Shown here: positions 49,109 through 53,709 of the stretch, one piece after another
Layout of the letters: each line of letters opens with the position of its first letter
Position numbering within the stretch: the first letter of the stretch is position 1
Assembly: GCA_016217545.1 (NCBI GenBank)
Contig: JACRHT010000016.1
Span: forward strand, 186,001-250,000
Source of the DNA: Opitutia bacterium
GTDB taxonomy: Bacteria > Verrucomicrobiota > Verrucomicrobiia > Opitutales > Opitutaceae
Direction: 5' to 3'
Length of the DNA: 64,000 bases
Made by a program: the position numbers and the translations under genes
Notes under the pieces: model-generated
What the model was told of the DNA's origin: nothing
Databases searched by the model: none
The model's input: only the letters and a program-made list of their open reading frames with translations

Positions 49109-49156
49109 GTTTGGCCGGGCTTGCCGCGCCAGAAGCTCTCGCCCACTTTTGCCCGC

Positions 49157-49586: not shown

Positions 49587-50438
49587 ATGCGCTTCCACAA
49601 ATATCACGCCTTGGGCAATGACTACCTCGTCATGGATCCGGCCGACTACCCGAGTTGGACCGCGCCGACTTACGACCAGATTCGCGCGATCTGCCACCGG
49701 AACTTTGGCGCTGGCTCCGATGGAATCTTGTGGGGCCCCGTCCGCTCCGAACGCGCGCCGTTCGGCCTGCGCATCTTCAACCCTGACGGTTCCGAAGCCG
49801 AGAAATCCGGCAACGGCCTCCGCATCTTTGCCCGCTATTTGTTCGACCAGAAAAAAGTCGGCGACGCTCCGTTCACCATCGAAACCGCGGGCGGCGTAGT
49901 GGAGGCAGTCGTGCGCGACGGCGGCAAATCGATCACCATCGCGATGGGCAAAGTGTCGTTCAGCAGCGACCGCATCCCGGTCGCCGGCCCGCTGCGCGAC
50001 GTCGTGAACGAGAAGTTGGTGATTCAGGAACGGGAGTTCACCTTCACCGCCGCCACTATAGGCAACCCGCACTGCGTGATTCCGCTCGCCGAAATCTCGG
50101 AGCCGATTGCCCGCTGCTATGGGCCGGAGATCGAGACCCACGCCAATTTTCCGAAGCGCACCAACGTGCAATTCCTCAAGGTTCGGGATCGCGCCAACAT
50201 TCAGATCGAAATTTGGGAGCGCGGCGCCGGCTACACGCTGGCGTCGGGCAGCAGCTCAAGCGCAGCCGCCGCGGTGGCGCATCGACTGGAACTCGTGGAT
50301 CGCGATGTCACTGTCCATATGCCCGGCGGCCAGATTCGCATCGAGATCGGCGACGGGTTCGCGATCAAGATGACAGGCCCCGTCACCCGAGTGGCCGAGG
50401 GATCGCTCCACGACGAACTGTTCACGACTCGCGTCTAG
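49587..50438 (+). CDS. dapF: DapF-family epimerase with both catalytic cysteines replaced by serine
   Basis: This 283-residue protein has the DapF fold and length. It keeps the substrate-binding residues: Asn11 in ALGNDY, Asn65 in NPDGS, Asn160 in GNPHCV, Asn193 in TNVQF, and Glu211/Arg212 in ERGAG. The two positions that carry the proton-transferring cysteines in DapF (Cys73 and Cys217 in H. influenzae) are Ser74 (KSGNGLR) and Ser220 (ASGSSSS). Standard two-base LL/meso-DAP epimerisation should be impaired. It may be a changed-function paralogue or may act by another mechanism. dapA and dapB lie elsewhere in the window. Confidence 0.88.
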   Translation: MRFHKYHALGNDYLVMDPADYPSWTAPTYDQIRAICHRNFGAGSDGILWGPVRSERAPFGLRIFNPDGSEAEKSGNGLRIFARYLFDQKKVGDAPFTIETAGGVVEAVVRDGGKSITIAMGKVSFSSDRIPVAGPLRDVVNEKLVIQEREFTFTAATIGNPHCVIPLAEISEPIARCYGPEIETHANFPKRTNVQFLKVRDRANIQIEIWERGAGYTLASGSSSSAAAAVAHRLELVDRDVTVHMPGGQIRIEIGDGFAIKMTGPVTRVAEGSLHDELFTTRV

Positions 50439-51118: not shown

Positions 51119-51258
51119 GGGAAGCGCGCCTAACAAACCCAACTTCATCGCGTCGTCAAAGCCCACGTCGTTGGAAGAACCCGCTCCCGTTTCCACGGCG
51201 GGCGGGGAGAATGCGCCTTGCCCGTCGCGCGCGCCAATCTAGGTTCCGCAGCGCAACG

Positions 51259-52875
51259 ATGTCCGCTGCGCCCGCCCCCTCACGCCCTTTCCGCGACTGG
51301 TTTTCCTCCCCTGTCGGATGGGTTACCGTGCCGCTTGCGGGATTCACGGTGGCTTTCATCGCGATGGTCGGCGACGAGTGGCACCGAAACCCGGACCTCT
51401 CCCACGGGTTGTTCGCTCCCGTCGTCTTCGCGCTCCTGCTCTGGGAAGGCGCGCGTCGCGGCACGCAGCGTTGGCTCGCCCCGGCAGGTTGGCGACAAGC
51501 CGCCGCCGCCCTCCTGGCGCTGCTCGGACTCGTGCTGTTCGCTGCCGCCGGACTTCTCGCGGCAACCGTCGGCTGGGGACACGCGCTGGTCAATTGCGTG
51601 CTCGCTCTCGCTCTCGTCGCCGCGTGGCTGGGTGCGTGGCTGGTGCTGGCGGACGAACGCGTCCGCGTGCTGCCGTTCAACTGGATAATTTTCACCGCCA
51701 TCGTCCTTTGGGTGCTCGCCTCTCCCATTCCGGACGGCACCTATCGGCGCGTGACGATGACGCTGCAACACGGCGTCACGACCGGCGTCCTCGACGCGCT
51801 GCACCTCCTCGGCATACCCGCGCGGCAGATGGGCAACGTCATCGAACTCGCCACGGCAAGCGTCGGCGTGGAGGAAGCGTGCAGCGGCATCCGCTCGCTG
51901 ATTTCCTGTCTCTACGCCGGTTTCTTTTTCGCCGCGTGGCTCGTGCGCGGTGCGGGGCGCAGGCTCTTCCTGATCCTCGCCGCGCCCGTCTTGGCGATCG
52001 TGATGAACTTCATCCGCTCGCTGGCCCTCACGCTCTTGGCGAACAACGGCATCGACATCGCCGGCTTTTGGCACGACGCCACCGGCTACGCGATTCTGGG
52101 CGTGACGTCGCTCGCCCTCGCCGGCCTCGCGGCGCTGATGAGCGCGCCGCCCGCCCCGCCGGCACCGGTGGACGACGTTGGCCGCGCCGCCACTATACCT
52201 CGCGCGCCGTTTGCGCTGCTCGCCAGCGTGTGCGGACTCGGACTCGCGCTCGGGATCTTCTTCGCGTCGTTCAATCACACCACCCCAACGCCGTCTGCGA
52301 CGTCGAGGATTTCCGCTGCGTCGCTGATTCCCGAGTCCGCTCCCGGTTGGGAGGTGCGTAGCTCCGACGATCTCTACCAATTCTCCGACATTTTGCGCAC
52401 GCGCGACCTCGCCGAGCGAACTTACCTCCGGCGCGGGCCCAACGGCGTCGTCCAAGTGACCCTCTACATCGCCCACTGGTTGCCGGGCGAAGCTTCCGTG
52501 AGCGTCGTCGCCTCGCACACCCCCGATGCGTGCTGGCCCGGCGGCGGCTGGAACGTCGGCCCCGTCGCGTCGCCGCAGGAACGTCTTACCGTCGGCGATC
52601 GCCAACTGCCCACCGCGGAGCATCGCTTCTTCGTCAAAGGTGCGCTGCCACAACACGTCTGGTTCTGGCACGTCTACCATGATCGCCCGATCAACTACCG
52701 CGATCCGTATTCGGTCCCCGCGTTGTTCGAGATCGCGTGGCGCTACGGCTTCCGTCGCGAAGGCAGCCAGTATTTCATCCGTTTCTCCAGCAACCAACCA
52801 TGGGAAACCCTCAAGCAGGAGCCCCTCGTGCAGGAGATCTTCCGCCGCCTCGCCACCGTGGGTCTCACGCCATGA
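51259..52875 (+). CDS. Exosortase fused to a C-terminal EpsI (DUF3485) domain
   Basis: This 538-residue protein is an exosortase with several transmembrane helices and the catalytic trio Cys208 (EEACSG), Arg253 (NFIRS) and His272 (FWHDATGY). After a Pro-rich linker near 295-310 and another helix, residues about 350-538 form an EpsI-like domain (SHTPDACWPGGGW). Exosortases cleave and anchor proteins bearing C-terminal sorting tails, in concert with exopolysaccharide genes. Neither EPS genes nor a recognisable sorting-tail substrate lie in the window. It couples to a 30-residue gene by ATGA. Confidence 0.92.
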   Translation: MSAAPAPSRPFRDWFSSPVGWVTVPLAGFTVAFIAMVGDEWHRNPDLSHGLFAPVVFALLLWEGARRGTQRWLAPAGWRQAAAALLALLGLVLFAAAGLLAATVGWGHALVNCVLALALVAAWLGAWLVLADERVRVLPFNWIIFTAIVLWVLASPIPDGTYRRVTMTLQHGVTTGVLDALHLLGIPARQMGNVIELATASVGVEEACSGIRSLISCLYAGFFFAAWLVRGAGRRLFLILAAPVLAIVMNFIRSLALTLLANNGIDIAGFWHDATGYAILGVTSLALAGLAALMSAPPAPPAPVDDVGRAATIPRAPFALLASVCGLGLALGIFFASFNHTTPTPSATSRISAASLIPESAPGWEVRSSDDLYQFSDILRTRDLAERTYLRRGPNGVVQVTLYIAHWLPGEASVSVVASHTPDACWPGGGWNVGPVASPQERLTVGDRQLPTAEHRFFVKGALPQHVWFWHVYHDRPINYRDPYSVPALFEIAWRYGFRREGSQYFIRFSSNQPWETLKQEPLVQEIFRRLATVGLTP

Positions 52876-52964
52876 TCTTCTCCACCACCCGCCAGGAACG
52901 CAAAATCCTCGCCTGCGTCGCTGCCTTGCTGGCCCTCGGCCTCATTGGCTTGCTCGTTCTCTGA
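52872..52964 (+). CDS. 30-residue membrane microprotein coupled to exosortase
   Basis: An ATG at 52872 overlaps the exosortase stop (ATGA) and opens a 30-codon frame. A short basic start (TTRQERK) is followed by one hydrophobic helix (ILACVAALLALGLIGLLVL) and a stop. The positive-inside start followed by a single helix is a credible single-pass membrane peptide. Its position suggests a subunit or regulator of the exosortase. It could also be the remnant of a longer gene, for example a helix-hairpin-helix protein of ComEA type; no continuation was found. Confidence 0.6.
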   Translation: MIFSTTRQERKILACVAALLALGLIGLLVL

Positions 52965-53118
52965 GTCAGGGAAGAACCGAGTTGCCAAGCCCCACCCCCA
53001 CCGAAAGCCTGCATCCCCCCGCCCGCTCTGCACGTATTCCGATGAAATGCTCACGGCAATCGTCTCACCGCTTCCCTCCGCCGGCTGGCTCAGCCGCCGG
53101 GAGCCGGTGCGCCCACGC

Positions 53119-53709
53119 ATGACCCCGGTTTCCGCCAACGAATCGACACCGGACCCGGCCGAGGAGCACCGCCGCCTCGCCGCCGCCCTCGCTCGCGGCG
53201 ACAAACAGGCTCTCGCACGCCTCTACGACCTGCTGGCCAAACCGCTCTACTCCCTCGCGCTGCGCATCACCAACGACGCCGCCGAAGCGCAGGACGTCAT
53301 CCAGGACGTCTTCCTCCAACTCTGGAACAAGGCGGTCGACTACGAGCCGGCACGCGGCAGCTACTTCTCCTGGGCCGCCACCCTGACCCGCAACCGCGCC
53401 CTCGACCGCGTCCGGATGCGCACTCGCCGCGCCGAGATCGTCCAGGAATCCGCGGGCGACCTTCTCCCCGCCAGCAACGACGACCTCGACTCCAGCGACA
53501 GCCTCTGGCTCCGGGAAAAAGCCAGCGCGGTCCGCGCCGCCCTCACCGCGCTCCCGCCGGAGCAAAAGGGCGCCATCGAACTCGCCTTCTTCCGCGGCCT
53601 CACTCAGCAGCAAATCGCGGAGCAACTCGGCGAACCTCTCGGCACGGTCAAAGCCCGCATCCGCCGCGGCCTCCTGCGGCTGCGCGAACACCTCACGTCC
53701 CGGCTATGA
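53119..53709 (+). CDS. ECF RNA polymerase sigma factor (RskA-paired)
   Basis: This 196-residue sigma factor has region 2 (LYDLLAKPLYSLALRI, DVIQDVFLQLWNKA) and region 4 (LTQQQIAEQLGEPLGTVKARIRRGLLRL). It matches SigK-like ECF factors. The ATG at 53119 gives a normal N-terminus; an upstream ATG at 53047 would add about 24 residues. Its stop overlaps the anti-sigma start (ATGA). It may control the preceding exosortase locus, which is inference. Confidence 0.9.
   Translation: MTPVSANESTPDPAEEHRRLAAALARGDKQALARLYDLLAKPLYSLALRITNDAAEAQDVIQDVFLQLWNKAVDYEPARGSYFSWAATLTRNRALDRVRMRTRRAEIVQESAGDLLPASNDDLDSSDSLWLREKASAVRAALTALPPEQKGAIELAFFRGLTQQQIAEQLGEPLGTVKARIRRGLLRLREHLTSRL

Follow-up and report, generated by a model that had tools for sequence, protein, structure and literature searches.

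DapF, a racemase that textbooks describe as working through a thiol/thiolate pair, is regarded as a target for antibacterials; the question raised by the gene at 49587..50438 on the forward strand of the window (the whole 64,000-nucleotide stretch of DNA analyzed) is whether a protein of this kind could supply the cell with meso-diaminopimelate (meso-DAP) when serine stands in place of both catalytic cysteines. The gene is an intact open reading frame encoding 283 residues plus a stop, and in profile searches its product matches the DapF model TIGR00652 at 227.6 bits (cut-off 114.65) and PF01678 (DAP_epimerase) at 175 bits (cut-off 34.7). In alignments with three solved DapF enzymes (9mro, 3ejx and 8qzy), SGNG lies on CGNG and ASGSS on ACGTG, in each case free of gaps, with Ser74 (codon TCC, 49806..49808, forward strand) at the first and Ser220 (codon TCG, 50244..50246, forward strand) at the second catalytic cysteine position; we take these positions to be Cys73 and Cys217 in the H. 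influenzae numbering. An earlier note on this DNA had proposed exactly this placement and had asked for an alignment to DapF, which bears it out; the binding residues that it listed as kept (Asn11, Asn65, Asn160, Asn193, Glu211 and Arg212) are all present, together with His162.

An AlphaFold2 model of the protein (mean pLDDT 96.2, pTM 0.92) has the two-domain fold of DapF, with Z-scores of 28.1 to 36.5 across the DapF structures listed and of 34.5–36.5 for the enzymes of a cyanobacterium, Pseudomonas and H. influenzae (9mro, 36.5; 8qzy, 36.1; H. influenzae 1gqz, 34.5 over 272 residues). Ser74 directly precedes helix 75–87 in this model, and Ser220 directly precedes helix 221–233; in the histidine racemase HisR, too, the cysteines sit at helix N-termini (PMC11602996). 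PhzF structures have the fold in common with the model (Z about 25, identity 13–14%), and the PhzF profile gave no match to the protein in a Pfam search at E 0.001, in which DAP_epimerase was the sole family reported. The model for bifunctional DapF/glutamate racemases (NF038284) scored 53.8 bits, below its cut-off of 350. Because the protein would by comparison work like DapF and yet lacks the two catalytic cysteines by which DapF is defined, we file it as a Ser/Ser variant of the DapF kind. A search for repeats near the gene gave nothing notable.

The serine pair is strictly conserved under purifying selection. It is present at all 112 loci of the first sets (three of which repeat the window gene, and some of the rest of which duplicate one another) and in all 80 further Opitutales members, and another set of 20 loci yielded 15 Ser/Ser and 4 Cys/Cys proteins plus one, L132, covering the first serine only. 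The rows pooled before the last 80 comprise 144 Ser/Ser (the query, those three repeats and a few duplicates among them) and 97 Cys/Cys, with L132 and L161 each lacking one position; once duplicates are removed, rows of 240–330 residues give 183 distinct Ser/Ser proteins, that of the window included, and 100 distinct Cys/Cys proteins. No mixed Ser/Cys form occurs among the rows read at both positions. Of the 80 further Opitutales members, 52 use TCN and 28 AGY at codon 74, and 77 use TCN and 3 AGY at codon 220; as TCN and AGY are not a single step apart and both boxes are used, it is serine as such that is being kept. The window gene has a dN/dS of 0.11–0.17 against seven congeneric relatives. 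Sequencing error at the TCC and TCG codons, which the earlier note had named as fatal to its proposal, is ruled out for the window gene, as is a pseudogene, by the occurrence of Ser/Ser throughout the 183 distinct proteins and by purifying selection. An in-frame stop is present in the Ser/Ser-type gene of two Opitutales members, G194 and G195.

The window genome (5.09 Mb), whose order we call Opitutales because its named relatives belong to Opitutaceae or Opitutia, holds a single PF01678 gene, the one described here. Its other genes for DAP synthesis and use lie elsewhere, away from the window gene: DapD (NF008808, 291.4 bits, cut-off 204), LysA (445 bits, cut-off 297.9) and a MurE with the motif DNPR, which was found in 30 of the 30 MurE sequences read, that of the window genome among them. 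A gene for an M20 peptidase adjoins dapD and matched the DapE and ArgE models below their cut-offs. LysA and DNPR-type MurE are taken as users of meso-DAP, and the DNPR motif may not discriminate the LL from the meso isomer. The three genes that the earlier note wanted checked were searched for, and none was found in the window genome: there is no second DapF by PF01678 search, no meso-DAP dehydrogenase (Ddh) and no DapL match over the TIGR03542 cut-off; seven of the eight aminotransferase matches were also scanned (all but L137), and none passes a DapL model within the 25 top-ranking models listed for it. The note's suggestion that meso-DAP is made another way is accordingly disfavored for this genome. 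A Ddh bypass is rejected, Ddh not having been found; a DapL route is not supported, and DapD was found instead; a wall built on LL-DAP or ornithine in place of meso-DAP is disfavored by the DNPR motif of MurE and the presence of LysA. With DapD, LysA and MurE present, one PF01678 gene, no Ddh found and no DapL over the cut-off, the search turned up no candidate other than the Ser/Ser protein for the conversion of LL- to meso-DAP.

The neighborhood of the window gene is uninformative. Homologs of rplU, rpmA and the open reading frame at 49121 occur in the fetched flanks of just 1 of 80 named loci, and homologs of the redoxin, exosortase, sigma-like, fabV and dtd genes in those of 21 to 39 of the 80, where presence rather than adjacency was scored. 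At 51211–53709 the window contains an exosortase gene (EpsH family, DUF3485) followed by a gene that resembles a sigma factor by eye; homologs of each are present in the fetched flanks of 39 of the 80 dapF loci of named relatives.

A broader comparison covered 203 Opitutales genomes at least 95% complete, which were searched for DapF (query P0001) and Ddh. DapF matches were found in 192, made up of 170 with a strong (Ser/Ser-type) match and 22 with a weak match only, and 11 had none; a recheck of six of these 11 with the family model (G256, G211, G314, G033, G051 and G327) again gave none. Among the strong matches, 80 and further ones were read, and all are Ser/Ser where both positions are covered; 12 of the 22 weak-match genomes were read, and all 12 are Cys/Cys. 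Ddh scored over the cut-off in 8 of the 11 genomes without DapF versus 5 of the 192 with it (Fisher p 3e-9, uncorrected for kinship; the eight genomes fall in three lineages). Those lineages are genus g145, G051 in g40 and G256 in g3, the Ddh matches reaching 438–462 bits in G051 and G327–G332 and 321 bits in G256. The exchange is also seen within g40, where G051 has Ddh and no DapF, and G210, G212 and G213 have a Ser/Ser protein and no Ddh over the cut-off. DapF and Ddh occur together in G014, G257, G265, G015 and G072, all five with a strong DapF match and with Ddh at 309–321 bits. Neither gene was found over the cut-off in G211 (one contig, 95% complete), G033 and G314; assembly gaps may account for the latter two, and G211 is unexplained. 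The Ser/Ser gene is thus missing mainly where Ddh is present or a Cys/Cys DapF stands in. The earlier note had left the choice between a new mechanism and a new substrate; these comparative data favor a new mechanism on the same substrate.

The same data bear on the proposal that epimerization has been lost, the protein having taken on another job (supplying D-glutamate, for instance, or acting in binding or regulation), with meso-DAP made by a different enzyme. Both cysteines are, after all, gone, and a glutamate racemase MurI was not found in the window genome, so that a role in D-glutamate supply is conceivable; in Chlamydia, DapF also acts on glutamate as a racemase (PMC5885031), and by the titles of records E. 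coli DapF has a partner role with RppH (PMC4227774 and PDB titles). However, another function would predict neither the tracking of gene absence with Ddh nor the 22 genomes that have only a divergent DapF instead, Cys/Cys in the 12 read. All DAP-binding residues checked are kept, and the activity of the Chlamydia enzyme is described as requiring both cysteines (PMC5885031). We therefore regard such a loss as unlikely, and consider it very likely, from comparison of genomes and sequences, that the window protein would have the epimerase role in the cell.

The Ser/Ser proteins form one clade in both of the trees built, each by a quick method (SH-aLRT 100 in the first and 99 in the second). A survey of the phylum matched 134 places, 13 of which were not fetched; it gave 97 readings from outside Opitutales, among which L177, L178 and L249 are Ser/Ser, L161 is incomplete, and the rest are Cys/Cys. 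In the first tree, the 13 Cys/Cys enzymes found in Opitutales group together (98), close to the Cys/Cys enzymes of other members of the class. On one reading, a Ser/Ser gene came in and displaced the native Cys/Cys gene across most of Opitutales; an ancestor with both genes, one or the other of which was later lost, would fit as well. G325 carries both types; G324, of the same genus, has the Cys/Cys type alone. G160 has a Ser/Ser DapF (L177) and a second DapF (L250) that keeps both cysteines, in which the ERG motif has become EFG and which is perhaps decaying.

Beyond the phylum survey, three further Ser/Ser relatives came to light: L389 on a plasmid of Agrobacterium vitis, L392 on one from Streptomyces, and L391 on a contig of IMG/VR. 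With these included, the second tree requires only a single change between Ser/Ser and Cys/Cys. Three plasmid relatives had been picked from 118 records, of which one (L389) is Ser/Ser and two are Cys/Cys, and L392 came from a further search. A first scan of viral contigs found no relative, an alignment scan found one (L391), and a third scan led to the same contig; 27 phage records with DapF were found. On an IMG/VR contig (L393, 180–1879), a gene for a site-specific recombinase runs into the end of an open reading frame on the opposite strand; this frame is truncated and resembles a sporulation sigma factor by eye, as if an element had inserted into it.

The plasmids of Agrobacterium vitis (pRvVAT039a; L389/L394) and Streptomyces sp. 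NBC_01216 (L392), hosts from two phyla, have a cluster in common that comprises genes for an iron-containing redox enzyme, a 2OG-Fe dioxygenase, the DapF-like protein, a molybdopterin oxidoreductase and an aldo/keto reductase. This cluster looks like a small-molecule pathway. Given this different gene setting, DAP need not be the substrate of all Ser/Ser proteins, and the plasmid relatives may use another. Extended to the window protein, the idea would be that a different small amino acid is the substrate and the link to DAP indirect; apart from these plasmid neighbors, the top structural match of the model could be cited in its favor, which is the O-ureidoserine racemase 7vdy (Z 37.5), tied with DapF. 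The plasmid relatives, however, differ from the window protein at residue 160, the window gene is the sole PF01678 gene found in a genome holding DapD, LysA and MurE, and the pattern of exchange points to meso-DAP, which leaves another substrate highly improbable for the window protein.

We infer from these comparisons that the window gene would encode the LL/meso-DAP epimerase of the cell. DAP would be bound as in ordinary DapF, with Ser74 and Ser220 replacing the thiol/thiolate pair: one serine would remove the alpha proton, and the other would deliver one back from the opposite face. Polar residues particular to the clade, Tyr13 foremost among them, might help to activate the serines. Residue counts in Ser/Ser and Cys/Cys rows single out Tyr13 (codon 13, 49623..49625, forward strand), which occurs in all 144 Ser/Ser rows (duplicates included, here and below) and all 80 further ones but in 4 of 100 Cys/Cys rows, the other 96 having Phe; Lys73, adjoining Ser74 (codon 73, 49803..49805, forward strand), in 142 of 144, 80 of 80 and none of 100; and Tyr216 (codon 216, 50232..50234, forward strand), in 144 of 144, 79 of 80 and none of the phylum's 100.

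Such a distribution would also be expected if DAP were epimerized with Tyr13, Tyr216 or Lys73, rather than Ser74 and Ser220, transferring the protons, and Tyr13, along with Tyr6, is kept in all three Ser/Ser relatives outside the phylum survey (L389, L391 and L392). These three nonetheless have both serines throughout, whereas Lys73 and Ser223 are found in none of them and Tyr216 in L391 alone; moreover, a Cys/Cys enzyme from Ilyobacter has both Tyr6 and Tyr216. Proton transfer by these residues is thus a doubtful alternative, to which we give little weight. Only Tyr6 and Tyr13 persist in all three outside relatives, and Tyr13 would be the best candidate for a helper of the serines. Given the epimerase role, Ser74 and Ser220 are likely to be the acid and base; for the reading as a whole, that of an active LL/meso-DAP epimerase with a pair of serines where thiol and thiolate would stand, the comparative data make a reasonably good case.

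Several observations count against this two-serine reading. As an acid, the hydroxyl of serine is far weaker than a thiol. In HisR, a Cys/Cys histidine racemase, the C67S and C209S forms are described as greatly reduced in turnover (PMC11602996). Low DAP has been reported for Opitutaceae: Lacunisphaera and Opitutus terrae contain 3–7 nmol versus 63 nmol in E. coli, about tenfold less, with ornithine also present, and three Lacunisphaera strains are said to give no DL-DAP by thin-layer chromatography, strain IG16b being nonetheless listed with DapF and DapL (PMC5303756). To these are added the genomes with neither DapF nor Ddh, those with both, and the stops in G194 and G195.

As to how a base might be activated, the report on Anabaena DapF puts the catalytic sulfurs within hydrogen-bonding distance of backbone amides and describes no basic residue within 4 Å (PMC12039745), and helix dipoles are said to stabilize the thiolates of HisR (PMC11602996). 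One natural serine base has a precedent in the proline racemase superfamily, which includes a Ser/Thr dehydratase and a Ser/Cys enzyme, the latter an active 4-hydroxyproline epimerase in which Ser93 faces a cysteine (PMC4113996). For two natural serine bases, no precedent was found in the literature searched. The earlier note would have yielded to cysteine-independent epimerization already on record; among the literature matches listed, a set with subscription papers mostly outside its scope, no title or opening of an abstract named a natural Ser/Ser DapF or a cysteine-independent DAP epimerase, and that objection falls away. With both cysteines replaced so widely and the gene missing mostly where another route exists, the chemistry of this putative enzyme is very probably not yet described.

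Cys-to-Ser changes are a common means of hindering enzymes of this fold for crystallography (PMC11602996 and PMC12039745); Cys-to-Ser mutants of H. influenzae DapF have reportedly been studied as well (PDB titles 2q9h and 2q9j). A natural clade working without either cysteine would, if confirmed, mean that the chemistry does not need thiols, raise the question of how an alkoxide-type base forms at neutral pH, and represent an enzyme closed to cysteine-bonding inhibitors. It also matters for annotation: database entries named DapF by profile can fail the two-cysteine definition, and the Ser/Ser clade flags them. In Corynebacterium DapF, H2O2 is reported to cause a loss of activity through a disulfide between the catalytic cysteines (PMC5296763), and we speculate that the Ser/Ser pair is kept because this disulfide cannot form. 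More broadly, there is perhaps an even chance that these proteins constitute a thiol-free, cofactor-independent class of racemase, in which two serines at helix N-termini, with Tyr13 and clade-specific polar residues, carry out 1,1-proton transfer, and which had a single origin, passed between phyla, took the place of the native two-cysteine DapF across most of Opitutales and would be immune to inactivation by a catalytic disulfide.

Among known systems, the Chlamydia DapF (a bifunctional epimerase/glutamate racemase, NF038284) has its superfamily in common with the window protein and comes from a host group that, like the window genome, is also often without MurI; unlike the window protein, it keeps and needs both cysteines (PMC5885031). 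The histidine racemases HisR and CntK have the fold in common and have been crystallized as engineered single Cys-to-Ser forms (PMC11602996; 6jiw, 9cr1 and 9cr6), but HisR uses two cysteines and is much slower with either serine. The proline racemase superfamily offers, as in the window protein, a natural serine at the first position of an active enzyme of the same fold, in Ser/Cys 4-hydroxyproline epimerase and Ser/Thr trans-3-hydroxyproline dehydratase (PMC4113996), and the structural matches of the model include 4lb0 (Z 25.1) and 4k7g (Z 26.0), assigned by title to these two hydroxyproline functions, at 14–15% identity. There, according to the same report, serine occupies the first position only and is set by an Asn three residues on (Ser90/Asn93), whereas both positions are serine in the window protein and the residue three on from Ser74 is Gly77. 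The closest likeness is to the two-cysteine DapF of H. influenzae, P. aeruginosa, Anabaena and Arabidopsis, which agrees with the window protein in family model, fold, binding residues and the location of the catalytic positions at helix N-termini, and differs from it in having cysteine where the window protein has serine at both; from the Cys/Cys DapF rows of its own phylum, the Ser/Ser clade is further set apart by Gln195, Glu208 and Ser223 in addition to Tyr13, Lys73 and Tyr216.
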